In this document: positions 1 to 49,023 of the stretch, piece after piece
Numbering within the stretch: the stretch's first letter is position 1
Layout of the letters: each line of letters begins with the position of its first letter
Assembly: GCF_000003815.2 (NCBI RefSeq)
Contig: NC_049979.1
Coordinates: forward strand, 29,809,441 to 29,873,440
From: Branchiostoma floridae
Taxonomy: Eukaryota > Chordata > Leptocardii > Amphioxiformes > Branchiostomatidae
Direction of reading: 5' to 3'
DNA length: 64,000 nt
Translations under genes and position numbers: made by a program
Notes under the pieces: model-generated
The model's input: only the letters and a program-made list of their open reading frames with translations
Databases searched by the model: none
Told to the model about the DNA's origin: nothing

Positions 1-3000
1 TCAGCCTGGATGTCTCGAGGTGGTCTGGTCTGCATGTCTGGATGTGGTCTGGCCTGCATGTCTCAATGTGTGGTCTGCATGTGTAAAGGTGGTCCGGCCT
101 GCATGTCTCGAGGTGGTCCGGCCTGGATGTCTTGAGGTGGTCCGGCCTGCACGTCTGGAGGTGGTCGGCCTGGATGTGTTGAGGTGGTCCGGCCTGCATG
201 TCTAGAGGTGGTCCAGCCTGGATTTCTCGAGGTGGTGCGGCCTGCATGTGTCGAGGCAGTCCAGTCTGCATGTCTAGAAGGAAGGAGTAACAGGTGGATG
301 GTTTTGAAGACATTTATCAACAGTTTGGAGGTCAAGTGTTGTGATAAGAAGTAAGTGTGCTTACCTTTTGTGTCTGGTAACTTTGTTTGGCCTTGATGTC
401 TGGAGGCTGTCTGGTCTGCATGTTTCAATGTGTGGTCTGCATGTGTATAGCCGGTCCGGTCTGCATGTTTGAGGCGGTCAAGTCTGCATGTCTAGAAGGA
501 AGGAGTGAATAGTAGGTGTTTGGTTTTGAAGTTATTTATCAACAGTTTGGAGGTGAAGTGTTGTTATAAGAAGTAAGTGTGCTTACCTTTTGTGTGAGGA
601 AGTTTTATCTCTACATAAGCAACACACTTTCTTCTGTGAGATTTGCATGTGTCAAGGTGGTGTGGCCTGCATATTTCAATGTGTGGTCTGCATGTGTATA
701 GGGGGTCCGGCCTGCATGTCTTGTGGCGGTCCAGTGTGCATGTCTAGAAGGAAGGAGTAACAGGTTGATGGTTTTGAAGACATTTATCAACAGTTTGGAG
801 GTCAAGTCTTGTGATAACAAGTAAGTGTGCTTACCTTTTGTGTCTGGTAACTTTGTTTGGCCTTGATGTCTGGAGGCAGTCTGGTCTGCATGTTTCAATG
901 TGTGGTCTGCATGTGTATATCCGGTCCGGCCTGCATGTCTCGAGGTGGTCCAGCACTTGACACGGTCCGGCCTGCAGGGATGGAGGCGGTCCAGCGTGCT
1001 CATCTTGACGCTGTTCGACCTGCATGTCTTGACACGGTCCGGCCTGCAGGGATGGAGGCGGTCCAGCGTGCTCATCTTGACCCTGTTCGACCTGCATGTC
1101 TTGACACGGTCCGGCCTGCAGGGATGCAGGCGGTCCAGCATGTTCATCTTGACGCTGTTCGACCTGCATGTCTTGACACGGTCTGGCCTGCAGGGATGGA
1201 GGCGGTCCAGCGTGCTCATCTTGACGCTGTTCCACGTGCATGTCTTGACACGGTCCGGCCTGCAGGGATGGAGGCGGTCCAGCGTGGTCATCTTGACGTT
1301 GTTTGGCCTTGATGTCTGGAGGCTGTCTGGTCTGCATGTTTCAATGTGTGGTCTGCATGTGTATAGCCGGTCCGGTCTGCATGTTTGAGGCGGTCAAGTC
1401 TGCATGTCTAGAAGGAAGGAGTGAATAGTAAGTCTTTGGTTTTGAAGTTATTTATCAACAGTTTGGAGGTGAAGTGTTGTTATAAGAAGTAAGTGTGCTT
1501 ACCTTTTTTGTGAGGAAGCGTTGTCTCTGCATGTGTCGAGGTGGTCCGGTTTCTGTGTCTCGGGGTGGTCCGGCCTGGATGTCTCGAGGTTGTCCAGCCT
1601 GCATGTGTCGATGTGGTCCAGACTGCTTGTCTCGAAGTGGTCCGGCCTGGATGTCTCCAGGTGGTCCGGCCTGCACGTCTGGAGGTGGTCTGGCCTGCAT
1701 GTCTCAATGTGTGGTCTGCATGTGTAAAGGTGGTCCGGCCTGCATGTCTCGAGGTGGTCCGGCCTGGATGTCTTGAGGTGGTTCAGCCTGGATGTCTCGA
1801 GGTGGTCTGGTCTGCATGTCTGGATGTGGTCTGGCCTGCATGTCTCAATGTGTGGTCTGCATGTGTAAAGGTGGTCCGGCCTGCATGTCTCGAGGTGGTC
1901 CGGCCTGGATGTCTTGAGGTGGTCCGGCCTGCACGTCTGGAGGTGGTCGGCCTGGATGTGTTGAGGTGGTCCGGCCTGCATGTCTAGAGGTGGTCCAGCC
2001 TGGATTTCTCGAGGTGGTGCGGCCTGCATGTGTCGAGGCAGTCCAGTCTGCATGTCTAGAAGGAAGGAGTAACAGGTGGATGGTTTTGAAGACATTTATC
2101 AACAGTTTGGAGGTCAAGTGTTGTGATAAGAAGTAAGTGTGCTTACCTTTTGTGTCTGGTAACTTTGTTTGGCCTTGATGTCTGGAGGCTGTCTGGTCTG
2201 CATGTTTCAATGTGTGGTCTGCATGTGTATAGCCGGTCCGGTCTGCATGTTTGAGGCGGTCAAGTCTGCATGTCTAGAAGGAAGGAGTGAATAGTAGGTC
2301 TTTGGTTTTGAAGTTATTTATCAACAGTTTGGACGTGAAGTGTTGTTATAAGAAGTAAGTGTGCTTACCTTTTGTGTGAGGAAGTTTTATCTCTACATAA
2401 GCAACACACTTTCTTCTGTGAGATTTGCATGTGTCAAGGTGGTGTGGCCTGCATATTTCAATGTGTGGTCTGCATGTGTATAGGCGGTCCGGCCTGCATG
2501 TCTTGTGGCGGTCCAGTGTGCATTTCTAGAAAGAAGGAGTAACAGGTTGATGGTTTTGAAGACATTTATCAACAGTTTGGAGGTCAAGTGTTGTGATAAC
2601 AAGTAAGTGTGCTTACCTTTTGTGTCTGGTAACTTTGTTTGGCCTTGATGTCTGGAGGCAGTCTGGTCTGCATGTTTCAATGTGTGGTCTGCATGTGTAT
2701 ATCCGGTCCGGCCTGCATGTCTCGAGGTGGTCCAGTGTGCATGTCTAGAAGGAAGGAGTGAATAGTAGGTGTTTGGTTTTGAAGTCATGTATAAACAGTT
2801 TGGATGTCAAGTGTTGTTATAACAAGTAAGTGTGCTTACCTTTTTTGTGAGGAAGCGTTGTCTCTGCATGTGTCGAGGTGGTCCGGTCTTTGTGCGTCGG
2901 GGTGGTCCAGCCTGGATGTCTCGAGGTTGTCCAGCCTGCATGTCTCGATGTGGTCCGGCGTGCATGTCTCGAGGTTCTTCGGCCTGCATGTTTCAATGTG

Positions 3001-3821
3001 TGGTCTGCATGTGTAAAGGTGGTCCGGCCTGCATGTCTCGAAGTGGTCCGGCCTGGATGTCTCCAGGTGGTCTGGCCTGCACGTCTGGAGGTGGTCTGGC
3101 CTTGATGTGTCGAGGTGGTCCGGTCTGCATGTGTAGAGGTGGTCCAGCCTGGATTTCTCGAGGTGGTCCGGCCTGCATGTCTTGAGGTCGTCCGCCCTGC
3201 ATTTCTCGAGGTGGTCTGGCCTGTATGTCTCAATGTGTGGTCTTCATGTGTAAAGGTGGTGTGGCCTGCATGTCTCAATGTGTGGTCTTCATGTGTAGAG
3301 GTGGTCCGGCCTGCATGTCTCGAGCTGGTCCGGCCTGCATGTCTGGAGGTGGTCGGGCTGGATGTGTTGAGGTGGTCCGGCCTGCATGTCTAGAGGTGGT
3401 CCAGCTTGGATTTCTCGAGGTGGTCCGGCCTGCATGTGTCGACGTTGTGCAGTCTGTTTGTGTCGACCTGTGGTCTGCATGTGTATGGGTGGTCTGGTAT
3501 GCATGTCTAGAAAAGGTGAGTCAATAAAAGGTGGTAGGTTTTATAGTCATTTAACAATAGTTTGGATGTCAACTGTTGTTGTAACAAGTAAATATGCTCA
3601 CCTTTTGTGTGAGGTAGCTTTGTCCGGCTTTTATGTCTGGAGGCAGTCTGGCCTGCATGTATCAATGTGTGGTCTGCATGTGTATAGGCGGTCCGGCCTG
3701 CATGTCTCGAGGTGGTCCAGTGTGCATGTCTAGAAGGAAGGAGTAACAGGTGGATGGTTTTGAAGGCATTTATCAACAGTTTGGAGGTCAAGTGTTGTGA
3801 TAACAAGTAAGTGTGCTTACC
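1..3821 (-). pseudogene. Degenerate octapeptide-repeat gene copy with ten short introns
   Basis: Read on the minus strand, 24-bp repeat arrays are separated by ten short blocks that look like introns: 274-364, 492-586, 744-834, 1408-1502, 2056-2146, 2274-2368, 2526-2616, 2745-2839, 3507-3601 and 3730-3820. Nearly all begin GTAAGC (one GTGAGC) and nearly all end in a pyrimidine tract plus CTTCTAG. The exons between them are 127, 157, 573, 553, 127, 157, 128, 667 and 128 nt. Exon ends encode a recurring LPxTK motif just before the donor, as in the gene at 13.2-24.8 kb. The reading frame does not survive: a one-base loss in the unit near 169, 1950 and 3350, followed by in-frame stops (for example near 3289), breaks it. 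I therefore read this as a decayed paralogue. A non-coding spliced transcript remains possible. The left end is cut by the window. Confidence 0.6.
956..1301. repeat. 72-bp higher-order minisatellite, about five units
   Basis: Each 72-bp unit is three diverged 24-bp subunits. It lies wholly within the minus-strand exon 835-1407 of the degenerate copy and is the same unit that fills the large exons at 13.6-15.6 and 18.6-20.9 kb. Confidence 0.9.
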
Positions 3822-4179
3822 TTTTGTGTCTGGTAGCTTTGGCCTTGATATCTGGAGGCAGTCTGGTCTGCATGTTTAAATGTGTGGTCTGCATGTGTAT
3901 AGTTGGTCCGGTCTGCATTACAGTAGTTCAAGGTTATAAGATAGTATTGATATAGAGGGGTTTGAGTTTTTACAAGTGTTTTGCTAGTTTTCATACAATG
4001 TCACCTGATAAGGATGACTAAAGTGAAGTGACATGCAATGTTGATTGTCAATGAAAGTGGGAAGTTGTACACAAAACAGAAATTAAAGCAGTTGAAATGT
4101 TACTACATGGAGACATGTTTTGTATCTTGGGACAGCAAGAAATGTTCAGTGGTATATTCAATGAGAAGTGTATTTGCAA
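3822..4179. other. End of the 24-bp array; otherwise nothing recognised
   Basis: The last 24-bp units fade out near 3920. The rest, up to the MITE at 4180, has no recognisable gene or repeat. Confidence 0.5.
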
Positions 4180-12500: not shown

Positions 12501-12985
12501 GAGAAGAGTCAGAATGAAGGGCAATATATTGTAATTTATACTGTAAATTTAAAATGAAGGTATGTTTAGTCAATGTTTATGTACTGAAACAAATCAGGAA
12601 AGAGGTCTTCTGGTTCTAGAATGGGAGACGGCCAGGCAGATATGGTAGTCATGATGCTTTCAAGAGTTTCCTGGAGGGATGGAGATGTGCCTGTAGAGAT
12701 GAAGATGTGGAAATATTATGTCACATTGTGAAGGATGCATCATGACACATAAGAAAGGTGAGTAGAAGGTACAACATGAGATGGGTTCTGAAGATGGGTT
12801 TGACTACTGCAGAAGGAAATGGTGCTTTTTGGAGTTTCCAGCTGGATAGAGCTACATGGATGATTTCTTCTTTTCATTTGTCATCATGAGTCACTCTGGA
12901 AGGAGTCCAATAACAGGTTGTAGGTTTTTAATGGCTTAAGAATAGTTTGGATATCAAGTTTTTTATAACAAGTAAGTGTCCTTAC
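12501..12985. other. Downstream flank of the repeat gene
   Basis: No gene recognised. The part from 12890 to 12985 resembles the intron sequences of the repeat gene (AATAGTTTGGATATCAAG and a donor-like AAGTAAGTGTCCTTAC). A minus-strand ATTAAA near 12930 could serve as a polyadenylation signal for the gene that stops at 13163, but this is weak. Confidence 0.35.
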
Positions 12986-13162
12986 TTTTTTTGTCTGGTA
13001 GCTCTGGCACATCATCATCAGCACGGTGTGAGGTCTGCATATCTGGAGGCGGTTCAGGCAGCATGTCACGAGACGGACTGGTCTGCATGTCTATGGGTGG
13101 TCCAGCGTGTATGTCTCGAGGTGGTTCAACCTGTATGTATCGAGGTGGTCTGGTCTCTATGT

Positions 13163-13371
13163 CTATGGGTGCTCTGGCCTCTGTAGGTGGTTGGCCTGCA
13201 CATCTGGAGGCAGTCCAGACTGCAGGTCTCGGAGCGGTGTGGTCTGCATGTGTATGGGTAGTACGTCGTGGACGTCTTGAGGCGTTGCGGTCTGCAGATC
13301 TTGAGGCGGTCTGGTCTGCACGTGTTGAGGCGGCTGGGTGTACATGTCTCGAAGTGGTGTTGTCTGCATGT
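13163..13371 (-). CDS. Repeat-gene last exon of model
   Basis: The acceptor is GAACTCCTTACTTCTAG. It continues in phase 1 with DMQTTPLRDM and further diverged octapeptides (TRPPQDLQ, SGLPPDVQ) to a TAG at 13163-13165. Array sequence continues to a donor-like site at 12985-12986, so the stop may be a secondary truncation of a longer exon. Confidence 0.5.
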
Positions 13372-16300
13372 CTAGAAGTAAGGAGTTCAATAATGGGTGG
13401 TAAGTTTTGAAGTCATTTAATAATAGTGTGGAAAGTACATCATTTTACAAAAACTACATGACTTTTGTCCAGTGTAGGAGAATTGTGAACATTCCAGCTG
13501 AATAGAGCTGCATGGGTGAATTCTGCTTTGTCATCATCAGTCTGTCTCAAAGGAGTCTAATAACAAGTTGTAGTTTTTAGAGTCATTTAACAATAGTTTG
13601 GATGTCAAGTGTTCTCATAACAAGTAAGTGTCTTTACCTTTTGTGTGAGGTAGCTCTGTGACATCATCATCATATTGTGTGGTCTGTTTATTTGGAGGTA
13701 GTTTGGTGTGCATGTCTCGTGGTGCTCCGATCTGCATGTCTCGAGGCGGTGCAGGCTGCATGTGTATGGATCCTCCAGCCTGTACGTCTGTCGGTAGTGT
13801 GGCCTGCATGTCTCGAGGTGTTTCACTCTGCGTGTCTCGAGGTGGTCCGGTGTGCATGTTTCGACCCTTTCCACTCTGCATGTATTGAGATGGTTTAGCA
13901 TGCATGTCTCCAGGTGGTTTGCTCTGCATGTCTCCAGGTGGTGTGGTCTGCATGTCTCCAGGTGGTTTGCTCTGCATGTCTCCAGGTGGTGTGGTCTGGA
14001 TGTCTCCAGGTGGTGTGCTCTGCATGTCTCCAGGTGGTATGGTCTGCAGCACTCTTATAGCCTGCAGGGATGGAGGCGGTCCAGCGTGCTCATCTTGACC
14101 CTGTTCGACCTGCATGTCTTGACACGGTCTGGGCTGCAGGGATGGAGGCGGTCCAGCGTGCTCATCTTGACCCTGTTCGACCTGCATGTCTTGACACGGT
14201 CCGGCCTGCAGGGATGGAGGTGGTCCAGTGTGCTCATCTTGACGCTGTTCGACCTGCATGTCTTGACACGGTCCGGCCTGCAGGGATGGAGGCGGTCCAG
14301 CGTGCTCATCTTCAGGCTGTTCGACCTGCATGTCTTGACAGGGTCCGGTCTGCAGGGATGGAGGCGGTCCAGCGTGCTCATCTTGACCCTGTTCGACCTG
14401 CATGTCTTGACACGGTCCAGGCTGCAGGGATGGAGGCGGTCCAGCGTGTTCATCTTGACCCTGTTCGACCTGCATGTCTTGACACGGTCCAGGCTGCAGG
14501 GATGGAGGCGGTCCAGCGTGCTCATCTTGACACTGTTCGACCTGCATGTCTTGACACGGTCCGGGCTGCAGGGATGGAGGCGGTCCAGCGTGCTCATCTT
14601 GACCCTGTTCGACCTGCACTTGACACGGTCCGCCCTGCAGGGATGCAGGCGGTCCAGCGTGCTCATCTTGACGCTGTTCGACCTGCACTTGACACGGTCC
14701 GGCCTGCAGGGATGGAGGCGGTCTAGCGTGCTCATCTTGACGCTGTTCGACCTGCACTTGACACGGTCCGGGCTGCAGGGATGGAGGTGGTCCAGCGTGC
14801 TCATCTTGACGCTGTTCGACCTGCATGTCTTGACACGGTCCGGGCTGCAGGGATGGAGGCGTTCCAGCGTGCTCATCTTGACGCTGTTCGACCTGCATGT
14901 CTTGACACGGTCCGGCCTGCAGGGATGGAGGCGGTCCAGCGTGCTCATCTTGACGCTGTTCGACCTGCACTTGACACGGTCCGGGCTGCAGGGATGGAGG
15001 TGGTCCAGCGTGCTCATCTTGACGCTGTTCGACCTGCATGTCTTGACACGGTCCGGGCTGCAGGGATGGAGGCGGTCCAGCGTGCTCATCTTGACGCTGT
15101 TCGACCTGCATGTCTTGACACGGTCCGGCCTGCAGGGATGCAGGCGGTCCAGCGTGGTCATCTTGACCCTGTTCGACCTGCATATCTTGACACGGTCCGG
15201 TCTGCAGGGATGGAGGCGGTCCAGTGTGCTCATCTTGACCCTGTTCGACCTGCATGTCTTGACACGGTCCGGCCTGCAGGGATGGAGGCGGTCCAGCGTG
15301 CTCATCTTGACGCTGTTCGACCTGCATGTCTTGACACGGTCCGGCCTGCAAGGATGGAGGCGGCCCGGCGTGCTCATCTTCAGGCTGTTCGACCTGCATG
15401 TCTCGACACGGTCCGGGCTTCTGGGATAGAGGCGGTCCAGCCTGCATGTCTTGAGGCTGTTCGACCTGCATGTCTTGACGCAGTCCAGCCTGCAGATGTA
15501 GAGGCGGTCCGGCCTGTACATCACATGGCGGACTGACCTGGATGTTTAGAAGTGCATTTCTGTGTGAAGAATGAAAAGATACATGGTTAAGGTTAATTGA
15601 GGTAAATGGTACCATAGACCATGTAATGTTTGCAAAATTCACAGGTCTATGTGTTAGTAAGTTTGCACCGTATGTGGCAAACAAAAGTTGGTATATAACT
15701 AGCCTTATATGTCGGACTGTGTCTGAACATGATGTATAATATTTATCATATTTGGAAATATCATGAATCAGAAATTGTTTTGTTGTGTGTTCAGAGAAGT
15801 AAGGTTTCCCTTTTTTTTAAGATATGCAATATTCACGGTTTTTGCTTCCGAATACATCATATGTCATGTCCAAGGTCCATATATTCCAAGGAGGAATATC
15901 CGGATTAAAAGAAAAAGGTTTCATGAAGCAGGATTGTATCATTTCTGGACCATTGTCAGACGAGATTTTGATGTATCAGAATATCATGAATCAGGAAATT
16001 TTATGGGTGATTTCTTGACAAGAATTTTTTGTTCTCCCGAATACATGTCATTGATGTTTCCTGTTTCTAATTGGACTGAAAGCAGGCTTTTACCTATCTT
16101 GAAGTATTTTTTGGCTGTGTGAGAAGTTTAACTTTCTTTTAAGTGTGTTTGGTGCATGCTTGATTTTTGAATTGTTTGATAAGGCACAGAAATTGCAACG
16201 TATGCTGTAAAGGTTGGGAAATGCAGGGAGTATATTGTACAATGTCCTCTATCAACTGTGTTAGAATTGCTAGGATATGGAAGAAAGGGCACCAATAGCA

Positions 16301-19300
16301 AGTTGTTGAAAATTTATAATAATGGTTAAGTATTTTGTGGTTGTCAGAAGTTTGATCTGCCTCTATATGTGTTTGGCTGTGTGATGATGCAATGCAATTT
16401 GATGTGTAAGGAATGTACCTTTGCTGGTGTACGGATGGTTTGGCCTGCATGTCTCGAGGCGGTCTGGCCTGGAAGTCTCGAGGTGGGCTGGCCTGCGTGT
16501 CTCGAGGCGGTATGCACTGTATGTCTAGAGTTGGTCTGGTGGTCTGCTGGGAATGTCTCGAGCCGGTGCGGCCTGTGTGTGTCGAGGCGGTGCGGCTTGC
16601 GTGTGTCGACGAGGTGCGGCCTGCGTGTCTCGAGGCGGTGCGGCCTGCGTGTCTCGAGGCGGTCCTGGCTGCATGTCTATGGGTGGTCCGGCCTGAGTGT
16701 CTCGACGTGGTTTGGTCTGCATGTGCGGTCTGCATGTGTTGAGGCGGTCCGGCCTGCATGTCACGAGGCGATTCAGCCTGGATGTGTTGAGGCGGTCCGT
16801 CCTGTAGGTGTTGAGGCGGTCCAGTCTGCACGTCTCGAGACACTCTGGCCTGGATGTTTAGAAGTGCATTTCTGAGTGCAGAATGAAAAGATACATGGTA
16901 AGGTTAATTGAGGTAAATGGTACCAAAGACAATGTAATGTTTGGAAAATTCACAGGTCTATGTGTAAGTTTGCACTGCATGTGGCAGACAAAAGTTGGTA
17001 TATAACTAGCCTTATATGTCCGACTGTGTCTGAACACGATGTATAATATTTATCATATTCGGAAATATCATGAATCAGAGATTGTGTTGTTGTGTGTTCA
17101 GACAAGTAAGACTTTCCTTTTTTTTCAAGATATGCATTATTCACGGTTTATGCTTCCGAATACATCATATGTCATTTTACACATGTCCAAGGTCCATATA
17201 TTCCGAGGAGGAATATCCTGACTAAAATGAAAAGGTTCTACAAAGCAGGATTGTATAATTTCTGGACCATTGTCAAACAAGATTTTGATGTATCAGAATA
17301 TCATGAATCAGGAAATCTTATGGGTGATTTCTGGATGTACCTTTGTTGCTGTACGGATGGTTTGGCCTGCATGTCTCCAGGTGGTGTGGTCTGCATGCCT
17401 CCAGGTGGTGTGCTCTGCATGTCTTGAGGTTGTCCAGTGTGCATGTCTTGACGTGGTCTGGTCTGTATGTCTCTAGGTAAACTGGACAGCATGTCTAGAA
17501 GAAAGGAGTCCAATAATGGGTGGTAGGTTTTGAAGTCATTTAGCAATAGTTTGCAAAGTACATCATTTTGCAAAAACTATATGACTCTTGTTCAGTAGCA
17601 GAATTGTGAACAGTCCAGCTGAATAGAGCTGCATAGATGAATTCTCCTTCTGCTTTGTTGTCATCAGTTTCTCTGGATGGAGTCCAATAACAGGTTTTAG
17701 GTTTTGAAGTAATTTAACAATATGTTGCATGTACATGGTGTTACCTTTTCTGTCAGGTAGCTGTGTCACATCATGATGGGCACACTGTGAGGACTGCATG
17801 TCTCGAGACGGTCTGGCCAGGATGATTCGAGGTCGTCCAGTCTTGTTGTCTTGTGGCTGTCAAAAAGGTGTTGGAGAAGACATGTGTTCGAAGGAGGTGG
17901 AAATAGCAAGAGGTAGCGCTTTATTTAGAATTACTGTAATGATTGTTTCTGTCAATGTACTTTTATGTTAAGGTTTGCAAGGTGATGACTGTAACGTAAA
18001 CTTGTCATTTACCTTTAACAAATAATACAAGAGACTTTTTGTACCCACATGTGAGGCCACTGTGAATGTTTAGTTTTGACGACAAGTTACATCTTTTCAA
18101 GAATGTGAAAGGTGGCTATTGAGGAGACAAAGTGAATTACATTAGTACAAGGCTACAAGAGTATTGAGAGTAACTAACCTTGAGTTAATATGTGGTGGAA
18201 GGAATGAGTTAGAATATGGGTGGCAAAGGTGTGCCAAATGACACAATGGATATGATGCATTGTTGTAGGATGGTGAATAGTGTGAAATGGTGAAGAAATC
18301 TTTGTAGGGAGGCAATATGAATGTCTTAGATGCAGGGAAAAGGAGAGGATGCATTTGGTACACACCTTCCTACAGTAGTGAGTGGTGTCGAAGTTACTCT
18401 TGCATCTGTAGCAGAAGTTTCTTACGATTGGTTTAAGCACCATCTGAGGAGAAATAGGCAGAAGTGAAAGGTTTGGCTGTAGCATATAGTGCAGGGGCTA
18501 GCTATAGCTAGTTGTGAGGTGTTAGCTGTACTAGGTAGCAGTTTGAAATCAGAGAGGCATCCGAGGAGATAACTGATTGTTGTATTTTTCCAAAGTGATT
18601 CATAGTAGTGGAAGGCTATAAGAGTATGAAAAGTAACTAACCTTGAATTTTAGTTTCATTCTCGATGTTGTCATGCCTTGAGATGGTCTAACATGCATGT
18701 CTCGAGATGGTCCAGCCTGTACGTCTAGAGGCGGTTCAGTCTGCATGTGTATGGGTGCTCTGACCTGCACGTCTGGAGGTACTCCTGTCTGGACATCTGG
18801 AGGTACTCCTGTCTGGACGTCTGGAGGACGTCCGGCCTGCACGTCTGGAGATGGCACAGCCTGCAGGGATGGAGACGGCATGGCATGTAGGGATGCAGGC
18901 GGCACGGTGTGCACATCTTCAGGCTGTTCAACCTCCATGTCTTGACACGGTCCAGTCTGCAGGGATGGAGGCAATGGAAAAGGTACGGTCTGCAGAGCTG
19001 GAGGCGGTCCGGCCTGCAGGGATGGAGGCAGCCCGGCGTGCACATCTTCATGCTGTTCAACCTGCATGTCTTGACACGGTCCGGGCTGCAGGGATGGAGG
19101 CGGTCCAGTGTGCTCATCTTGACGCTGTTCGACCTGCATGTATTGACACGGTCCGGCCTGCAGGGATGGAGGCGGTCCAGTGTGCTCATCTTGACCCTGT
19201 TCCACCTGCATGTCTTGACACGGTCCGGCCTGCAGGGATGGAGGCGGTCCAGCGTGCTCATCTTGACCCTGTTCGACCTGCACTTGACACGGTCTGGCCT

Positions 19301-22300
19301 GCAGGGATGGAGGCTGTCCAGCGTGCTCATCTTGACCCTGTTCGACCTGCATGTCTTGACACGGTCCGGGCTGCAGGGATGGAGGCGGTCCAGCGTGCTC
19401 ATGTTGACCCTGTTCGACCTGCACTTGACACGGTCCGGCCTGCAGGGATGGAGGCGGTCCAGCGTGCTCATCTTGACGCTGTTCGACCTGCACTTGACAC
19501 GGTCTGCCCTGCAGGGATGCAGGCTGTCCAGCGTGCTCATCTTGACGCTGTTCGACCTGCATGTCTTGACACGGTCCGGCCTGCAGGGATGGAGGCGGTC
19601 CAGCGTGCTCATCTTGACCCTGTTCGACCTGCATGTCTTGACACGGTCCGGCCTGCAGGGATGCAGGCGGTCCAGCATGTTCATCTTGACGCTGTTCGAC
19701 CTGCATGTCTTGACACGGTCCGGCCTGCAGGGATGGAGGCGGTCCAGTGTGCTCATCTTGACCCTGTTCCACCTGCATGTCTTGACACGGTCCGGCCTGC
19801 AGGGATGGAGGCGGTCCAGCGTGGTCATCTTGACGTTGTTCGACCTGCATGTCTTGACACGGTCCGGCCTGCAGGGATGCAGGCTGTCCAGCGTGCTCAT
19901 CTTGACCCTGTTCGACCTGCATGTCTTGACACTGTCTGGCCTGCAGGGATGGAGGCGGTCCAGTGTGCTCATCTTGACCCTGTTCGACCTGGATGTCTTG
20001 ACACGGTCCGGTCTGCAGGGATGCAGGCGGTCCACCGTGTTCATCTTGACGCTGTTTGACCTGCATGTCTTGACACGGTCCGGCCTGCAGGGATGGAGGC
20101 AGTCCAGCTTGCTCATCTTGACCCTGTTCAACCTGCATTTGACACGGTCCGGCCTGCAGGGATGCAGGCGGTCCAGCGTGCTCATCTTGACCCTGTTCGA
20201 CCTGCATGTCTTGACACGGTCCAGTCTGCAGGGATGCAGGCGGTCCACCGTGCTCATCTTGACGCTGTTTGACCTGCATGTCTTGACACGGTCCGGCCTG
20301 CAGGGATGGAGGCGGTCCAGTGTGCTCATCTTGACCCTGTTCGACCTGCATTTGACACGGTCCGGCCTGCAGGGATGGAGGCGGTCCAGCGTGCTCATCT
20401 TGACGCTGTTCGACCTGCACTTGACACGGTCCGGCCTGCAGGGATGGAGGCGGTCCAGCGTGCTCATCTTGACCCTGTTCGACCTGCATGTCTTGACACG
20501 GTCCGGCCTGCAGGGATGCAGGCGGTCCAGCATGCTCATCTTGACGCTGTTCGATCTGCACTTGACACGGTCCGGCCTGCAGGGATGGAGGCGGTCCAGC
20601 GTGCTCATCTTGACCCTGTTCGACCTGCATGTCTTGACACGGTCCGGTCTGCAGGGATGCAGGCGGTCCAGCGTGCTCATCTTGACGCTGTTCGACCTGT
20701 ATGTCTTGACACGGTCCATCCTGCAGGGATGGAGGCGGTCCAGCGTGCTCATCTTGACGCTGTTCGACCTGCATGTCTTGACACGGTCCGGGCTGCAGGG
20801 ATGGAGGCGTTCCAGCATGCTCATCTTGACCCTGTTCGACCTGCACTTGACACGGTCCGGTCTGCAGGGATGGAGGCGGTCCGGCCTGCTCATCACGTGG
20901 CGGTCTGACCTGGATGTTTCGAAGTGCATTTCTGTGTGAAGAATGAAAAGATACATGGTAAGGTTAATTGAGGTAAATGTAATGTTTGCAAAATTCACAG
21001 GTTTATATGTTACTTTGCACGGCATGTGGCAAACAAAAGTTGGTATTTTAACTAGCCTTATATGTAGGACTGTGTCTGAACATGATGTATAATATTTATC
21101 ATATTTGGAAATATATAAAAGTTTATCATTTCTGGACCATTGTCAGACGAGATTTTGATGTATCAGAATATTATGAATCAGGAAGTTTTATTGGTGATCT
21201 CTGGACGAAAAGAATTTTTTGTTCTCCCGAATACATGTCATCCATGTTTGCTGTTTCTAATTGCACTGAAAGCAGGCTTTTACCTATCTTGAAGTATTTT
21301 TTAGCTGTGTGAGAAGTTTAACTTTCCTTTAAGTGTGTTTGGTGCATGCTTGATTTTTGAATTGTTTGATAAGGCACAGAAATTGCAACATAGGTTGTAA
21401 AGGTTGGGAAATGCAGGGAGTATATTGTACAATGTCCTCTATCAACTGTGTTAGAATTGCTAGGATATGGAAGAAAGGGCACCAATAGCAAGTTGTTGAA
21501 GATTTATAATAATGGATAAGTATTTTGTGGTTCTCAGAAGTTTCATCTGCCTCTATATGTGTTTGGCTGTGTGATGATGCAATGCAATTTGATGTGTAAG
21601 GAATGTACCTTTGTTGGTGTACGGATGGTTTGGCCTGCATGTCTCGAGGCGGTCTGGCGTGGAAGTGTCGAGGTGGGGTGGCCTGCGTGTCTCGACGCCG
21701 TGCGGACTGTATGTCTAGAGTTGCTCTGGTGGTCTGGTGGGAATGTCTCGAGGCGGTGCGGCCTGCGTGTGTCGAGGCGGTGCGGCCTGCGTGTGTCGAG
21801 GCGGTGCGGCCTGCGTGTGTCGAGGCGGTGCGGCCTGCGTGTGTCGAGGAGGTGCGGCCTGCGTGTCTCGAGGCGGTGTGACCAGCGTGTCTCGAGGCGG
21901 TGCGGCCTGCGTGTCTCGACGCGGTCCTGGATGCATGTCTATGGGTGGTCCGGCCTGAGTGTCTCGACGTGGTTTGGTCTGCATGTGCGGGCTGCATGTG
22001 TTGAGGCAGTCCGGCCTGCATGTTACGAGGCGGTTCAGCCTGGATGTGTTGAGGCGGTCCGTCCTGTAGGTGTTGAGGCGGTCCAGTGTGCACGTCTCGA
22101 GACATTCTGGCCTGGATGTTTAGAAGTGCATTTCTGAGTGCAGAATGAAAAGATACATGGTAAGGTTAATTGAGGTAAATGGTACCAAAGACAATGTAAT
22201 GTCTGCAAAATTCACAGGTCTATGTGTTAGTAAGTTTGCACCGCATGTGGCAGACAAAAGTTGGTATTTTAACTAGCCTTATATGTCCGACTGTGTCTGA

Positions 22301-24846
22301 ACATGATGTATCATATTTATCATATTCGGAAATATCATGAATCAGAAATTGTGTTGTTGTGTGTTCAGGCAAGTAAGACTTCCCTTTTTTCCAAGATATG
22401 CATTATTCACGGTTTTTGCTTCCGAATACATCATATGTCATTTTACACATGTCCAAGGTCCATATATTCCGAGGAGGAATATCCTGATTAAAAGGAAAAG
22501 GTTCCATGAAGCAGGATCATTTCTGGACCATTGTCAGACGAGATTTTGATGTATCAGAATATCATGAATCAGGAAATCTTATGGGTGATTTGTGGATGTA
22601 AAGAATTTTTTGTTCTCCCGAATTCATGTCATTGATGTTTGCTGTTTCTAATTGGAGTGAAAGCAGTCTTTTACCTATCTTGAAGTAATTTTGGCTGTGT
22701 GAGAAGTTTAACTTTTCTTTAAGTGTGTTTGGTGCATGCTTAATTTTTGAATTGTTTGATAAGGCACAGAAATTGCAACGTATGCTGTAAAGGTTGGGAA
22801 ATGCAGGGAGTATATTGTACTATGTCCTCTATCAACTGTGTTAGAATTGGTAGGATATGGAAGAAAGGGCACCAAGAGCAAGTTGTTGAAGATTTATAAT
22901 AATGGTTAAGTATTTTGTGGTTGTCAGAAGTTTTATCTGCCTCTATATGTGTTTGGCTGTGTGGTGATGCAATCCAATTTGATGTGTAAGGAATGTACCT
23001 TTGTTGGTGTACGGATGGTTTGGCCTGCATGTCTCGAGGCGGTCTGGCCTGGAAGTGTCGAGGTGGGGTGGCCTGCGTGTCTCGAGGCGGTATGCACTGT
23101 ATGTCTAGAGTTGGTCTGGTGGTCTGCTGGGAATGTCTCGAGCCGGTGCGGCCTGTGTGTGTCGAGGCGGTGCGGCTTGCGTGTGTCGACGAGGTGCGGC
23201 CTGCGTGTCTCGAGGCGGTGCGGCCTGCGTGTCTCGACGCGGTCCTGGATGCATGTCTATGGGTTGTCCGGCCTGAGTGTCTCGACGTGGTTTGGTCTGC
23301 ATTTGCGGCCTGCATGTGTTGAGGCGGTCCGGCCTGCATGTCACAAGGCGGTTCAGCCTGGATGTGTTGAGGCGGTCCGTCCTGTAGGTGTTGAGGCGGT
23401 CCAGTCTGCACGTTTCGAGGCACTCTGGTCTGGATGTTTAAAAGTGCATTTCTGAGTGCAGAATGAAAAGATACATGGTAAGGTTAATTGAGGTAAATGG
23501 TACCATAGACCATGTAATGTCTGCAAAATTCACAGGTCTATGTGTTAGTAAGTTTGCACCGCATGTGGCAGACAAAAGTTGGTAATATAACTAGTCTTAT
23601 ATGTCAGACTGTGTCTGAACACGATGTATAAGATTTATCATATTCGGAAATATCATGAATCAGAGATGGTGTTGTTGTGTGTTCAGGCAACTAAGACTTC
23701 CCTTTTTTTCAAGATATGCAGTTCACGGTTTTTGCTTTCGAATACATCATATGTCATTTTACACATGTCCAAGGTCCATATATTCCGAGGAGGAATATCC
23801 TGATTAAAAGAAAAAGGTTCCACGAAACAGGATTGTATCATTTTTGTACCATTGTCAGACGAGATTTTGATGTATCAGAATATCATGAATCAGGAAATCT
23901 TATGGGTGATTTCTGGATGTAAAGAATTTTTTGTTCTCCCAAATACATGTCATTGATGTTTGTGTTGTTTCTAATTGGAGTGAAAGCAGGCTTTTACCTA
24001 TCTTGAAGTATTTTTGGCTGTGTGAGAAGTTTAACTTTCTTTTAAGTGTGTTTGATGCATGCTTAATTTTTGAATTGTTTGATAAGGCACAGAAATTGCA
24101 ACGTATGCTGTAAAGGTTGGGAAATGGAGGGAGCACAATGTACTATGTCCTCTATCAACTGTGTTAGAATTGGTAGGATATGGAAGAAAGGGCACCAAGA
24201 GCAAGTTGTTGAAGATTTATAATAATGGTTATGTATTTTGTGGTTGTCAGAAGTTTTATCTGCCTCTATATGTGTTTGGCTGTGTGGTGATGCAATGCAA
24301 TTTGATGTGTAAGGAATGTACCTTTGTTGGTGTACGGATGGTTTGGCCTGCATGTCTCGAGGCGGTCTGGCGTGGAAGTGTCGAGGTGGGCTGGCCTGCG
24401 TGTCTCGACGCCGTGCGGACTGTATGTCTAGAGTTGCTCTGGTGGTCTGGTGGGAATGTCTCGAGGCGGTGCGGCCTGCGTGTGTCGAGGCGGTGCGGCC
24501 TGCGTGTGTCGAGGCGGTGCGGCCTGCGTGTGTCGAGGCGGTGCGGCCTGCGTGTGTCGAGGAGGTGCGGCCTGCGTGTCTCGAGGCGGTGTGACCAGTG
24601 TGTCTCGAGGCGGTGCGGCCTGCGTGTCTCGACGCGGTCCTGGATGCATGTCTATGGGTGGTCCGGCCTGAGTGTCTCGACGTGGTTTGGTCTGCATGTG
24701 CGGGCTGCATGTGTTGAGGCAGTCCGGCCTGCATGTCACGAGGTGGTTCAGCCTGGATGTGTTGAGGCGGTCCGCGCTGTAGGTGTTGAGGCGCTCCAGT
24801 GTGCACGTCTCGAGGCACTCTGGCCTGGATGTTTAGAAGTGCATTT
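13163..24846 (-). CDS. Ten-exon octapeptide-repeat gene (5' end not identified)
   Basis: Transcript order, minus strand: 24846-24322, 23451-22999, 22133-21609, 20931-18642, 18443-18366, 17856-17745, 17494-17341, 16871-16419, 15559-13638 and 13371-13163 (stop). Every intron is GT-AG. Junction phases agree throughout (2-2, 2-2, 2-2, 2-0, 0-0, 0-1, 1-2, 2-2, 2-1, 1-stop). After one leading base the sum is 6,720 nt, or 2,239 codons plus stop, with no internal stop. The product is built of 8-residue repeats (one per 24-bp unit), such as GPPRDMQA, TPPGDMQS and APPRHTQA. The long exons use a 24-residue higher-order form, GPPPSLQA-GPCQDMQV-EQGQDEHA. No transmembrane segment is seen. The first exon was not found, so a signal peptide cannot be judged. 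I recognise no family, and the function is unknown. The splice model is inferred from sequence alone. Confidence 0.6.
13638..15559 (-). CDS. Repeat-gene exon 9 of model (1,922 nt, phase 2-1)
   Basis: The acceptor is CATTCTTCACACAG and the donor CAAAAG/GTAAAG. About 19 copies of the 24-residue unit are followed by pure octapeptides (TPPGDMQS, KPPGDMQT) and diverged ones (TLPTDVQA, GAPRDMHT), ending YDDDVTELPHTK. The frame is intact for all 640 codons. Confidence 0.6.
14060..15415. repeat. 72-bp higher-order minisatellite, about 19 units
   Basis: Three 24-bp subunits per unit; 69-bp variants lack three bases in the third subunit. Units differ mainly at fixed positions (CGC/CCC before TGTTCGACC, GGCC/GGGC before TGCAGGG). 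Because 24 and 72 are multiples of three and several frames lack stops, long open frames appear on both strands. Confidence 0.95.
16419..16871 (-). CDS. Repeat-gene exon 8 of model (cassette A, 453 nt, phase 2-2)
   Basis: The same cassette type as exons 1-3 (CTGCACTCAG acceptor, CAAAG/GTACAT donor) but placed on the other side of the large exon 4. It opens NALLNIQ and ends PSVHQQ plus a split Arg codon. Confidence 0.55.
17341..17494 (-). CDS. Repeat-gene exon 7 of model (154 nt, phase 1-2)
   Basis: The acceptor is ACTCCTTTCTTCTAG before ACATGC; the donor is CAACAAAG/GTACAT. It encodes five octapeptides of the RDIQTRP, TPPGDMQA type and ends QAKPSVQQQ, parallel to the ends of the cassette exons. 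Confidence 0.55.
17745..17856 (-). CDS. Repeat-gene exon 6 of model (112 nt, phase 0-1)
   Basis: The acceptor is CACCTTTTTGACAG and the donor GAAAAG/GTAACA. The exon encodes a polar lead (PQDNKTGRPRIIL), one octapeptide-like piece (PSRDMQSS) and DVTQLPDRK before the donor. The last part matches DVTELPHTK at the end of exon 9, indicating paralogous exon ends. Confidence 0.5.
18366..18443 (-). CDS. Repeat-gene exon 5 of model: Cys/His-rich 26-codon exon
   Basis: The acceptor TATTTCTCCTCAG is strong; the donor AAG/GTGTGT is weaker. The 26 codons include CYRC and, eight residues later, HYC, a Cys-Cys-His-Cys arrangement that could bind zinc. Reading on into the intron adds further VCTKC cysteines before a stop. 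The exon is symmetric (phase 0-0), so it could be skipped without changing frame. It is the only non-repetitive part of the gene. Confidence 0.4.
18642..20931 (-). CDS. Repeat-gene exon 4 of model (2,290 nt, phase 2-0)
   Basis: The acceptor is TTTTCATTCTTCACACAG and the donor AAG/GTTAGT. After NALRNIQ come about 27 copies of the 24-residue unit, then shorter octapeptides (GVPPDVQT, PSPSLQAV) and a basic end, MKLKFK. Length variants among the units are 21, 24 or 27 residues in steps of whole codons (QDMQV versus QVQV). If the donor is not used the frame runs on only 14 codons to a stop at 18600, so this could also be a terminal exon. Confidence 0.6.
18960..20888. repeat. 72-bp higher-order minisatellite, about 27 units
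   Basis: The same unit as at 14.06-15.4 kb, inside exon 4 of the repeat-gene model, with the same 69-bp variants interspersed. Confidence 0.95.
21609..22133 (-). CDS. Repeat-gene exon 3 of model (cassette C, 525 nt, phase 2-2)
   Basis: Nearly identical to cassette E in length and sequence, including four tandem GCGGTGCGGCCTGCGTGTGTC units on the plus strand. The matching symmetric phases mean that any number of these cassettes can be spliced without changing frame. Confidence 0.55.
22999..23451 (-). CDS. Repeat-gene exon 2 of model (cassette D, 453 nt, phase 2-2)
   Basis: It has the same acceptor and donor context as cassette E but is exactly 72 nt (three octapeptides) shorter. Its 870-nt upstream intron is a near copy of the intron on its other side, showing that exon and intron were duplicated together. 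Confidence 0.55.
24322..24846 (-). CDS. Repeat-gene exon 1 of model (cassette E, 525 nt, phase 2-2)
   Basis: The acceptor is TTCATTCTGCACTCAG before AAATGCAC; the donor is CAAAG/GTACAT. The exon opens with NALLNIQ and carries His/Thr/Arg-rich octapeptides (PPRHTQAA, GRTASRHA-like in other frames) and ends in PSVHQQ plus a split Arg codon. An upstream exon ending in phase 2 is required but was not identified. Confidence 0.55.
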
Positions 24847-27480
24847 CTGAGTGCAGAATGAAAAGATATATGGTAAGGTTAATTGAGGTAAATGATGTGA
24901 TGATGTGATATTTGCAGAATTCACAGGTCTATGTGATAGTAAATTTGTACTACATGTGGCAAATAAAAATTGGTATTATACGTAAGGCCTTTATCTCTTT
25001 CAACGGATGTAAATTCCATTTGGAAGTAGACAAAAGTTAGCATCATATTTCATCTCCATATTATAGGTTTTAAACTTGATACAAATAACACAATAATTAT
25101 TAATCTATAGAAAAGTTTAACGAGAGAGGTCCATTTTTCTAATGGGGTCCAAATTTCGTCAGGTTTTAAAAATCATTGTTAAAAATGCATACATGCATGT
25201 ACATGAGAAATACAATTAGGTATAGACTAAACCTTGTCGCAAATACGACATGTGAAAAAATACCACCACGCATAGGAATTAAGTTTATCAGACCTCCGAA
25301 AAATAATATCTGTGTATTGTTTTGCCTTTAACTCGTCTTCCGGGTGGAAGGTAAAACGGGGGTCCTATGCTCGAGGAGGTGCCTCGACCACGATAAACAG
25401 CCTGATTACTCTCATTTTGGGTACCTACTGGCTGCAAAATACACCCGATATTATTATTATTATTATCATTAACTGGATTGAATAAACAGAGCAAAAATGA
25501 TGCCACAAATTATGTGCACCCATTCGGGGCCCCGTCATTTTACTATCACGCACGCTGGCGGGCAAGCGATGCTCAAGTCGATGAACTTAGTTATCCCATT
25601 GGTAGAGCGACGACCATTTAAGAAAAATCGATCCCTACGTAGTAAAAAATGCTGTAGCCATTGTTGCTGCGTAAAAGGCAAGATAAAATGGCAATCAAGG
25701 AAGTCGAAAAGCGAACATGCCGTACAGTTCGACGTAAACAAGGTGTTGCCGTTTTGCGGCAAGTTGGTCTCACCGTCAGAGGTAAACTTTTGAACACACC
25801 GTATTTGAACAAGTCATGTAGTACAAAATATGACTGATATTTGATAGTGAAAAATAGTAATAAAAACTTTTAGTGCGTTTCTATTTACATAGGATGTTTT
25901 GAAATGCACAGCGATTGTCTGGTTGTTATCATGTCGGCATATGGACCCCTTTTTTGTGTTGGAACGTTCTGGCACGAAAGTTGAAAACCTGGGCTTCTTG
26001 CTCCAACTTTCTCCGGAAATCACACTCTTTCGGACAGTGATATGTGAAAAATCATAAGGTATAACAATCGTATGTTACCTGTGGTCTTCTGGCAACGCAT
26101 CTGTCCAATGTCGGTCCATGCCGTTAATACTACAGACTACAGTTGAGTAGAGTCAAAAGTTGAAGTACTGTTTCCAAGTGGTACCAGTTAGTTGTTGCAA
26201 GGAGCTCGAGGTTAAACATTTAACCAATGAGGTTCTTGCTGATGAAACCATTCTATCTAAGGGGTGGGTAGTTTGCATAAACCTGAATGTGAGGGGTAAA
26301 GGTTGGGTAAGGCAGGAAGTAAATGGCTTTTCCTACTGTAGCAGTCTTAAAATTGCAAGGATAGAGCAAAAATGGCATCAAAAAAAGGCTTTTATCTATG
26401 TCGAAGTACTTTTTGGCAGTGCGAAAAGTTTAACTTTCCCCTGAATGTGTTTGGGGCGTGTTGTTTACAAGTTCTGCGTTCAGGCTGGCGGGATGATGTA
26501 ATGCGAGGTGTAAGGAATGTACCATTGTAGGTGATTGTGGGTGGTGAAAAGGAAATAGATACAGAATTAGTGAATAATAATATCTAGATGGCAATACAGG
26601 AATGTATAGGATGTTGTTGTATCTACTTAATGTATTTAAACAGGTTTGTGATTTCAACCAAATATTGCAATACGTTTTGTACGTTCTAAACTTGCTTCCA
26701 AAGTTTTCTCAATACGAATGGAAGAATCCAAATTGGCGATTAAACCATTTATTTTAGCGGGAGGGGGGGGCAGCTTCAGAAATTGCAACATGAGTTGTAA
26801 AGATTGGGAAAGGCAAGGGTTATGTACAATTATCTCTATCGATTGTATTCGACTTGGTAGGATATAGAATAAAGTGCACCAAGAGTGGGTTCTTGAAAAC
26901 TTATAATTATGTTTAAGTCTGTTGTGGTTGCGAGAGGTTTTATCTTCCCCTAAATATGTTTGGGGTGTGCTGGACTGGGCTGCTTGGTGATGCAATGCAA
27001 CGTGATCTCTAAGGAACGTACCATTGTAGGTGATTGTTGGGGGGGATAACTAGAAATAAATCCAATGAACAAGAGTATGTAGGTGAAATTGAAGCAGTAC
27101 ATGTGATGTATCGGTATATTTCAACGAGATATCCCTATGCCGAGTTGAGGCATGCAAACCTTCAGTTCTAAAAATGTGATGTGTTGTATTGTAAACCTAC
27201 TGTGAAGAACTGCAAAATCTTTTTTGTATGTAGTAATTAAGAGTAAAGTTTGGCTACTTTCTCATCTATTGATTTTCTATTTTGCATATAAAGGTACTGT
27301 AAATAGTCATTAAGAAAGCATGAAATACCCAGTGGAAGTGAGGAAATGATCAGTGTACATTTAACATGCACATATGATTACCACACTGCAGATGTAACCA
27401 AGTTTAACGTACACATATAATTGTCACACTGTATAATAGTGAAACAACCAGAGGGGCGAGTAAGAACAGAAAGAAACAAC
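24847..27480. other. Mostly unassigned; relics of the cassette flank
   Basis: The first 130 bp are cassette flank. At 26390-26530 and 26780-27045, diverged copies of the cassette intron recur (AGAAATTGCAAC, AAAGTTTAACTTTC, GATGCAATGCAA) without any 24-bp array. The upstream exon of the repeat gene is expected near here but could not be pinned down. Confidence 0.5.
25497..25793 (+). CDS. Possible isolated exon, Lys/Cys-rich (weak)
   Basis: A 98-codon open frame with a cysteine cluster (KCCSHCCCVKGK), a basic stretch and a donor-like AGAG/GTAAAC at about 25782. It has higher GC than its surroundings. I recognise no family, and chance is quite possible. Confidence 0.2.
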   Translation: MMPQIMCTHSGPRHFTITHAGGQAMLKSMNLVIPLVERRPFKKNRSLRSKKCCSHCCCVKGKIKWQSRKSKSEHAVQFDVNKVLPFCGKLVSPSEVNF

Positions 27481-27486
27481 AGCCCG

Positions 27487-27775
27487 ACTCCCGGGATTCG
27501 AACCCGCGCCAAACCCGGGCAGCTGGATCACAAATCGAACTTGCAAACCGTTCGGCCATAAAGGCTTAAGCCGTTAGGCGTCTTCGGTTTAGCAGTCCTT
27601 GAACACCACTGTTACACTACTCCCCCTTTTCTTTTCAAGATTCCCGGGATTCGAACCCGCGCCGAACCCGGGCAGCCGGATCACAAATCGAACTTGCAAA
27701 CCGTTTGGCCATAAAGGCTTAAGCCGTTAGGTGTCTTCGGTTTAGCAGTCCTTGAACACCACTGTTACACTAGCA
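27487..27775 (-). repeat. Tandem pair of tRNA-derived units (SINE-like)
   Basis: Two copies about 155 bp apart. Read on the minus strand, each holds an A box TGGCCGAACGG (the second copy TGGCCAAACGG) and an exact B box GGTTCGAATCC, the internal RNA polymerase III promoter of tRNAs. The acceptor-stem sequences do not pair, so these are not functional tRNAs. The tail after the B box is short, and the lead before the A box (GTGTAACAGTGG...) is shared by both copies. Confidence 0.65.
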
Positions 27776-30880: not shown

Positions 30881-32463
30881 AATATCAACTTTTGTTTGCC
30901 ACATGCCGTGCAAACTTACTAACATATAAACCTGTGAATTTTGCAAATATTACATGGTCTATGGTAGCATTTACCTCAATTAACCTTACCATGTATCTTT
31001 TCATTCTTCACACAGAAATGCACTTCGAAACATCCAGGTCAGACCGCCACGTGATGTGCAGGCCGGACCGCCTCCATCCCTGCAGCCCGGACCGTGTCAA
31101 GTGCAGGTCGAACAGCGTCAAGATGAGCACGCTGGAACGCCTCCATCCCTGCAGTCCGGACCGTGTCAAGACATGCAGGTCGAACAGTGTCAAGATGAGC
31201 ACGCTGGACCGCCTCCATCCCTGCAGGCCGGACTGTGTCAAGTGCAGGTCGAACAGCGTCAAGATGAGCACGCTGGACCGCCTCCATCCCTGCAGTCTGG
31301 ACCGTGTCAAGACATGCAGGTCGAACAGGGTCAAGATGAGCACGCTGGACCGCCTCCATCCCTGCATGCCGGACCGTGTCAAGACATGCAGGTCGAACAG
31401 GGTCAAGATGAGCACGCTGGACCGCCTCCATCCCTGCAGGCCGGACCGTGTCAAGACATGCAGGTCGAACAGGGTCAAGATGAGCACGCTGGACCGCCTC
31501 CATCCCTGCATGCCGGACCGTGTCAAGACATGCAGGTCGAACAGGGTCAAGATGAGCACGCTGGACCGCCTCCATCCCTGCAGGCCGGACCGTGTCAAGA
31601 CATGCAGGTCGAACAGGGTCAAGATGAGCACGCTGGACCGCCTCCATCCCTGCAGGCGAGACCGTGTCAAGACATGCAGATCGAACAGGGTCAAGATGAG
31701 CACGCTGGACCGCCTCCATCCCTGCAGGCCGGACCGTGTCAAGACATGCAGGTCGAACAGGGTCAAGATGAGCACGCTGGACCGCCTCCATCCCTGCAGC
31801 CCGGACCGTGTCAAGACATGCAGGTCGAACAGGGTCAAGATGAGCACGCTGGACCGCCTCCATCCCTGCAGGCCGGACCGTGTCAAGACATGCAGGTCGA
31901 ACAGTGTCAAGATGAGCTCCCTGCAGACCGGACCGTGTCAAGACATGCAGGTCGAACAGGGTCAAGATGAGCACGCTGGACCGCCTCCATCCCTGCAGAC
32001 CGGACCGTGTCAAGTGCAGGTCGAACAACGTCAAGATGAGCACGCTGGACCGCCTCCATCCCAGAAGCCGGGACCGTGTCAAGACATGCAGGTCAAACAG
32101 GGTCAAGATGAGCACACTGGACCGCCTGCATCCCTGCAGGCCGGACCGTGTCAAATGTAGGTCGAACAGGGTCAAGATGAGCACGCTGGACCGCCTCCAT
32201 CCCTGCAGCCCGGACCGTGTCAAGACATGCAGGTCGAACAGCGTCAAGATGAACATGCTGGACCGCCTGCATCCCTGCAGGCCGGACCGTGTCAAGACAT
32301 CCAGGTCCAACAAGGTCAAGATGAGCACGCTGGACCGCCTCCATCCCTGCAGGATGGACCGTGTCAAGACATGCAGGTCGAACAGCGTCAAGATGAGCAC
32401 ACTGGACCGCCTGCATCCCTGCAGGCCGGACCGTGTCAAGACATGCAGGTCGAACAGGGTCAT
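30881..32463 (+). pseudogene. Broken inverted copy of a repeat-gene array exon
   Basis: About 130 bp of cassette flank, including the acceptor TTCATTCTTCACACAG (exon would start at 31016), precedes about 19 units of the 72-bp repeat, here in plus orientation. A 17-bp deletion near 31915 shifts the coding frame, and CAAATGTAG at about 32154 replaces the usual CAAGTGCAG, giving a stop. The array breaks off at 32463 directly before GTAAGT, a donor-like site that belongs to the new flanking sequence. Only the acceptor side of the original exon is preserved. Confidence 0.75.
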
Positions 32464-42652: not shown

Positions 42653-43270
42653 TTAACTGCTTATCATACAATATGTCGCATCGTGATAACTATAGAAAGT
42701 TTGTATGACGCCAGAACTAGTATAGCTAGTATATGATGAAATATACATGTGATCTATAAGAGTTTCTTGTCTTGTTGTGCTCTTGTGGATTACCTGAGTA
42801 AAGTTTTCTCCTTTCATAAAATGAGATATGTCTTTATTTCCTGATGTTGACAAAACATCCTCATTGAAATCACCCACAATAACAGTGAAGTGTCTTTCTA
42901 TACCAGATATATACTCCAAGATGTTACTTAAGCATGTGATAAAGATACGTTTTGAAACATTGGGTGGTCTATAAATATTTATAAGTAAAATATTTTTTAG
43001 CTTGATGCTGAGTTTCAGCACTATGATATCTATGTTTGATGTACTGAATGTTTTACAAAATGCACAGCTGTAGTCATTACGGACATAAACACACACACCT
43101 CCGTAACCTCCTGTTATTGTGTCATCTCTAAACGCAGATATTCTGTCACAACGATGTACAGAAAAATGTTCTAACCAAATAGATGATGACTGAATATTTT
43201 CGAACAACCATGTTTCAGTTAAACATAGCACATCAGCGTCTATAAGACATGTTCCTTGTAAACAATTCAA
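42653..43270 (-). pseudogene. Endonuclease (EEP) domain of the Helentron, frameshifted
   Basis: An exonuclease-endonuclease-phosphatase domain of the kind fused to the helicase in Helentrons. Visible motifs are LTETW (catalytic Glu), INIYRPPN, GDFNED (catalytic Asp/Asn) and near the end FYSYHDA. The last should be SDH in this family; here the Asp codon at 42686-42688 is TAT (Tyr), one base from GAT. There is no ATG. The frame opens directly after a TAA at 43274-43276, while the first strand of the domain (HHNVQGL) is encoded at the end of the Rep/helicase frame. The domain was therefore once continuous with the helicase and is now split by a one-base shift near 43270. It is probably inactive. 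Confidence 0.8.
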
Positions 43271-48966: not shown

Positions 48967-49023
48967 TGTGACTACTATTGATATAATACATAAAGTTCGA
49001 CCTTCACCGAATGATCGTACCAA

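Follow-up and report, generated by a model that had tools for sequence, protein, structure and literature searches.

The repeat cluster and its twelve-exon model

We describe a window of 64,000 nucleotides from the lancelet Branchiostoma floridae (G000:C1:29809441-29873440, in an assembly of 513,431,437 bases and 431 contigs), the whole stretch of DNA that was analyzed, and within it a repeat-rich region, here called cluster A, that reads on the minus strand as a candidate protein-coding gene of about 12 exons. Tandem Repeats Finder places many 24-bp arrays between 13 and 25 kb of the window together with two long 72-bp arrays, as a preliminary description of the same DNA had stated. On the minus strand these arrays encode a GPPRDMQA-like or GPPPSLQAGPCQDMQVEQGQDEHA-like peptide in open reading frames (ORFs) of 733 and 787 amino acids, and GPPPSLQAGPCQDMQVEQ is an example of the repeat units in exons 2-11 of the model below, in which slashes mark splice borders.

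26079..26119, minus strand: exon 1, proposed start, 41 bp; ATG, reading MDRHWTDALPEDH(R); donor CACAG/GTAACA; phase 2 out
24322..24846, minus strand: exon 2, cassette, 525 bp; phase 2-2; one of three frames open
22999..23451, minus strand: exon 3, cassette, 453 bp; phase 2-2
21609..22133, minus strand: exon 4, cassette, 525 bp; phase 2-2
18642..20931, minus strand: exon 5, 2,290 bp; 24-bp units plus repeats of 72 bp (24 amino acids), the latter about 26 in number; phase 2-0
19005-20894: long 72-bp array (Tandem Repeats Finder)
18366..18443, minus strand: exon 6, non-repetitive, 78 bp; FCYRCKSNFDTTHYCRK; phase 0-0
17745..17856, minus strand: exon 7, 112 bp; phase 0-1; ends ...QLPDRK/G
17341..17494, minus strand: exon 8, 154 bp; phase 1-2; octapeptide units
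16419..16871, minus strand: exon 9, cassette, 453 bp; phase 2-2
13638..15559, minus strand: exon 10, 1,922 bp; 24-bp units plus repeats of 72 bp, the latter about 20 in number; phase 2-1; ends ELPHTK/G
14060-15510: long 72-bp array (Tandem Repeats Finder)
12986..13363, minus strand: exon 11; acceptor ATGCAG/ACAAC, open to the donor AAAAAAA/GTAAGG
12566..12690, minus strand: exon 12, proposed last; after TCTCTACAG, reads TSPSLQETLESIMTTISAWPSPILEPEDLFPDLFQYINID-TAA; phase 1

Joined in this order, the exons run from the ATG at 26119 to the TAA at 12566 and give 7,056 nt, or 2,351 codons and one stop; all 11 introns are GT-AG, and their phases match from start to stop, given the acceptor at 13363. 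The used frame holds 0 internal stops, and the other two hold 22 and 90 stop trinucleotides. The predicted product is a protein of 255 kDa with a pI of 5.9 and a composition of 45% P+Q+G+A. Splice sites were scored with a generic matrix, on which the donor AAG/GTACAT, serving 5 of the 11 introns, is weak (2.2 bits), and exons 1, 6, 7 and 12 were located with the reading frame in mind. A longer exon 6, to 18179, is likewise open and joins exon 8.

The preliminary description had proposed a gene of ten exons, from 24846 to 13163. Its chain is open as described: the three introns it named (13372-13637, 15560-16418 and 20932-21608) are exact, and the ten exons, with a total of 6,721 nt, read through 2,239 codons without a stop and, when the acceptor at 13371 is used, then come directly to TAG at 13165-13163. 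That chain is not closed, however, as position 24846 carries no start signal and is preceded by an acceptor, the stop is reached through a 1-bp register shift, and both the start exon (26119-26079) and the other end exon (12690-12566) lie outside the stretch it named. The proposed exon 1 leaves in phase 2, the phase required by exon 2, and its ATG and donor were also picked by the chain search described below. Compared with the genome, the exon 12 peptide has a single match at E 1 or better, namely itself.

Exon 11 is where a recently dead gene, or an allele-specific broken one, would show itself, with the exon frame-shifted and the frame ending at 13163 in this haplotype. The acceptor TTCTAG at 13371 is of the family type, resembling those of exon 8 and of the cassettes in the neighboring cluster B; it leads to the TAG at 13163, a 1-bp register shift lies within the exon, and the surrounding copies decay. 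Against this, no more than one exon near the 3' end is affected, an AG eight bases downstream (13363) scores the same (2.2 each) and takes the frame on to exon 12, and the protein could also end at 13163, with 2,253 residues. We therefore regard a dead or broken gene as improbable, and keep the intact twelve-exon gene as the working model.

One cassette accounts for four of the exons (24322-24846, 22999-23451, 21609-22133 and 16419-16871), whose copies differ by 1.7 to 6.0%. Inside these exons and exon 11 the repeat switches register between PPRDMQAG-like and SRHAGRTA-like peptides while the frame stays open. Because the register changes in this way, the label of octapeptide-repeat protein given in the preliminary description is right only in part, and no selection is seen on the octapeptide itself. 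With the cassette intron as a genome query (40 of 54 candidates scored), long matches among those scored are confined to this locus, and outside it the matches come down to a recurring piece of about 150 bp.

The open frame measured against controls

Exons 2-12 were counted with the final stop codon trimmed: exon 8 is free of stops in two frames, and each of the other 10 only in the frame that the model uses. If the 11 non-first exons are treated as independent, the chance that random frames would all fit is 1.1e-5 (acceptor 13363), rising to 3.0e-4 when the four cassette copies are counted once and to 2.7e-3 when the cassette copies and the two 72-bp exons are merged, all three values taking as given splice sites some of which were chosen with the frame in mind. 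The phases at the nine junctions of the earlier chain do match, but they are not nine independent coincidences because four exons are copies of one cassette.

We also searched for the longest ATG-to-stop splice chain, blind to the hand model and scored as codons minus 10 per intron. In cluster A this search begins at the ATG at 26119, reproduces 7 of the 11 model introns exactly, including the acceptor at 13363, and scores 2,323. It departs from the hand model at exons 6-7, where it leaves out exon 7, within intron 9, and at the last exon, where it favored another end exon, 12379-12195, over 12690-12566. Several other stretches of the window and its left flank bear on this score.

1..3990 and about 5.7 kb to the left, minus strand: cluster B, tandem cassettes with periods of about 219-237; assembly gaps on the left
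31053..32462, plus strand: 72-bp array copied in inverted orientation; a deletion of 17 bp shifts its frame
33340-57108, both strands: many 23- and 46-bp arrays; their period is unable to hold a frame, which sets them in natural contrast with the 24-bp arrays

The regions searched were cluster A (21.0 kb), cluster B (15.1 kb, with assembly gaps), the opposite strand (21.0 kb) and the inverted copy (4.5 kb), and the opposite strand is the only length-matched control among them. Control chains scored 629 on the opposite strand, 672 in cluster B, 206 on the opposite strand of cluster B, 496 in the inverted copy, and 175 and 107 in 23-bp arrays. Cluster B is a natural control for cluster A: it carries acceptors TTCTAG/ACATG and donors AAAAG/GTAAGC that cannot be chained in frame, and, counted by hand over the nine cassettes lying wholly inside the window (several to the left hold assembly gaps), 2 of 9 are closed in every frame, and the phases agree at 1 of 8 consecutive junctions. 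Tandem duplication across predicted exon-intron borders is present in the cassettes of both clusters, provided the borders are real. The earlier statement that each array is closed by an acceptor and a donor does not carry over to every array as part of a chain: those at 1-3990 and leftward have similar signals and no chain.

Scrambling the frames by a random deletion of 0-2 bp in each of ten exons gave no score that attains the real 2,323 (0 of 300). The same holds with an intron penalty of 30 (0 of 300 attain the real 2,103; maximum 2,028) and when 1-2 bp are always deleted (0 of 200; maximum 2,042). The argument that random joining would break the frame is weaker than had been claimed, given a chance of up to 2.7e-3 and a scramble mean that stays high, as reported in the next section.

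These results bear on the simplest alternative, that there is no gene and that splice sites were selected to fit. It draws on the fact that exons 1, 6, 7 and 12 were sought with the frame in mind and that several sites are low on generic splice scores; however, near-identical copies pin down where the cassette exons begin and end, the scrambles fall short of the real score, and the frames alone fit with a chance of 1.1e-5 to 2.7e-3. We consider such a fortuitous assembly very unlikely, and turn back to the repeat-built gene with the divergence among its copies.

Change among the copies and relatives elsewhere

Divergence was compared between copies within one genome. Three observations point toward a frame that is kept. 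Among cassette copies, small indels number 0 in 525 exon columns versus 10 in 874 intron columns, 7 of the latter not multiples of 3 (P 0.037 by length, 0.09 when scaled by substitutions; a 72-bp gap in the exons and a 175-column gap in the introns are excluded from the count). Every one of the 12 indels in those parts of the two long 72-bp arrays that were examined measures 3 bp, and the inverted copy has four indels of 3 bp and one of 17. At a CpG of the repeat unit, CAA and the stop TGA occur 10 and 0 times in cluster A and 17 and 17 times in cluster B (Fisher 0.0037, raw).

Set against a coding gene are the following observations, which we weigh together. Scrambled frames still average 1,825 and reach 2,301, and they keep such scores because four exons are cassette copies and the 24-bp arrays are open in several frames; arrays of this kind yield long chains at almost no cost, so 2,239 codons are not strong evidence on their own. 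A second minus-strand frame is open for 805 amino acids, and the plus strand for 543 and 682. The chain is lost under stricter splice thresholds (best scores 822 and 843), its weak point being the donor AAG/GTACAT, and the threshold of 2.1 was fixed after the site scores had been seen. The 3-bp indels resemble a few events copied often, and the two short 72-bp arrays of cluster B are also free of indels. Counted over distinct contexts and with an amplified variant omitted (12 of the 17 TGA in cluster B), the CpG contrast becomes 7:0 versus 6:3 and loses significance (P 0.21). Divergence of cassette exons (1.7-6.0%) overlaps that of introns (4.1-8.1%), and cassette differences by codon position in the used frame are 6/2/1 and 10/1/3, mostly first positions, with 7 and 10 non-synonymous versus 1 and 4 synonymous codon changes. 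The 110 substitutions in the 72-bp units include 21 synonymous ones when read in the used frame, versus 24.2 expected, whereas another frame has 33 synonymous changes versus 23.6 expected. Purifying selection on codons is thus not seen in this between-copy comparison, a synonymous excess being absent in the used frame. Avoidance of stops in the 72-bp units was considered as evidence of coding and rejected as having no power (0 stops versus 0.65 expected).

Much of this would be expected of a mirage-type satellite that makes no protein, in which border duplication produced the splice-like signals, the locus is possibly transcribed and spliced, and the open frame is a by-product of 24- and 72-bp units. 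Amphioxus mirages are described as minisatellite-like sequences in which exon-intron borders are tandemly duplicated; many of them contain AG/GT signals, and their lengths are unstable (PMC3087553). They are established in the globin genes BflGb6/9 and in the Adh3, troponin C and PGBD5 genes, where they are reported not to interfere with regular splicing (PMC3087553; PMC3902484). The similar signals of cluster B with no usable frame, the neutral look of the divergence, and the long chains from scrambled frames and long openings on the opposite strand agree with this explanation. So do cluster-B-like cassettes on another chromosome (C7:6007000-6007810), which have similar splice signals and are followed, about 0.8 kb downstream on their own strand, by an FTCD exon (FTCD_C match, E 7.7e-7). 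The satellite explanation does not predict one open frame over about 12 exons, three of them non-array (1, 6 and 12), with start and stop in phase, nor does it predict the absence of small indels from the cassette exons. A non-coding mirage-type locus is a real possibility, and the nearest competitor, although we find it well short of probable; the repeat-built gene remains the most likely reading.

Relatives of the cluster are found elsewhere in the genome. Related short arrays also occur on C6. When exon 6 is searched together with the edge of its upstream intron, the genome has a single additional match (C6:3950006, E 1.1e-4). It is a partial copy in which, by eye, the intron is about as similar as the exon; a 1-bp gap precedes the cysteine motif, and the motif itself is longer by 9 bases. 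On the same strand and 16 kb upstream of this second copy lies a 24-bp array coding PPPYVQAV (C6:3933922-3934397, or L020 923-1398, with L018 7013-7087), in which, by eye, the frame is shifted by 2 bp close to the beginning; this region of C6 is perhaps a decayed paralogous locus. At two other places on C6 (L011 5800-6500 and L013 4600-5500), common flanks surround, by eye, 24-bp arrays of unequal length, and the arrays look as if carried within a dispersed repeat.

The rest of the window holds features of other kinds. Rfam gave 0 matches at the gathering score within the window.

27489-27772: a 153-bp sequence present twice in tandem and including a tRNA-like stretch (GGTTCGAATCCCGGG); perhaps a short interspersed nuclear element
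42654-49029, minus strand: Helitron-type transposon; ORF of 1,920 amino acids with OTU, Helitron_like_N and PIF1 helicase domains, then an endonuclease-like ORF
60289-61730, plus strand: two replication protein A-like ORFs (REPA_OB_2, Rep_fac-A_C), possibly belonging to the same kind of transposon as the Helitron

The predicted product, its origin and known systems

No family could be recognized for the predicted protein, as the preliminary description had also found: exons 2, 4, 5, 6 (short and long), 10 and 12 and the join of exons 1 and 2 gave no Pfam match above the curated cut-off. Matches below the cut-off in exons 5 and 10 (WHIM1, 18.9 and 18.1 of 19.1 bits; U3_snoRNA_assoc, 19.6 of 27.4) were set aside as composition. 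Exon 10 has no match to solved structures at E 0.1; AlphaFold2 models it, from an alignment of 3 sequences, with regular strands at a predicted local distance difference test (pLDDT) score of 52.4, and models the long exon 6 alone at 52.3, both too low for use. Extended into the intron, exon 6 resembles the C-terminal half of a Kunitz/BPTI domain (C-x12-C-x3-C and NF; best phmmer E against solved structures 0.014), with just the last three cysteine positions fitting; we rejected this assignment, as it covers half a domain only and has no Pfam match.

Taken together, the evidence makes a real, recent, repeat-built protein-coding gene the best account of cluster A, and from the sequence alone we give it a probability of roughly 0.57. 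Such a gene would span about 13.5 kb of the minus strand, from 26119 to 12566, with about 12 exons and about 2,350 codons for a hydrophilic repeat protein rich in Q, P, A and G, and it would be transcribed, spliced and translated. Unequal exchange would lengthen the protein with its frame intact where the exchanged units have a length divisible by three, and exchange of whole exon-intron cassettes of symmetric phase (2-2) would likewise lengthen it in frame. Selection may keep the open frame rather than a particular peptide, which would probably make the product a repeat protein that is disordered or of low specificity, and copies outside the gene would be free to decay, giving rise to cluster B and the inverted copy. 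Growth of the coding sequence by minisatellite expansion, as first proposed, accordingly remains the best reading, now with a model closed at both ends, but it had been stated with too much certainty. A bolder version, which we offer as speculation, is that a gene is being born here: mirage-type duplication of cassettes would have built the 2,350 codons, selection would act on the open frame and symmetric phases and not on sequence, single exons would contain one and the same minisatellite in two reading registers, and the length and sequence of the protein would change very fast between individuals.

If the gene is expressed, it joins two phenomena that we have met only in separate accounts, the lancelet duplication of exon-intron borders as minisatellites and repeat-protein genes that grow by threes, and it offers a place to watch intron gain, exon gain and protein lengthening between individuals, with the decayed neighbors as a built-in control. 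If it is not expressed, the locus is a warning that unit lengths divisible by three yield thousands of open codons almost free.

Among the open-licence papers listed by our literature search, no title deals with this gene, and we compare it here with three known systems. Coding variable number tandem repeat genes, such as MUC1 and involucrin, have units that are multiples of three, so that length varies and the frame is kept, and they mostly use one register and one exon. Cluster A likewise has unit lengths divisible by three, whereas its repeat is spread over many exons and read in two registers. Balbiani ring products are secreted salivary proteins; the N terminus of the product proposed here, MDRHWTDALPEDHR, has no signal peptide by eye. 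Coding sequence consists of tandem repeats in the Balbiani ring genes and would do so here, and the Balbiani ring gene BR3 of Chironomus, at 11 kb with 38 introns throughout and diverged internal repetition, shows that many-intron repeat-coding genes exist (PMC4192438). The third system is the mirages of amphioxus itself, which the duplications of clusters A and B resemble in crossing predicted exon-intron borders with AG/GT signals. In the mirages as reported, however, an ordinary gene hosts the duplications, whereas in cluster A whole exons are repeat, and the chained exons stay open.

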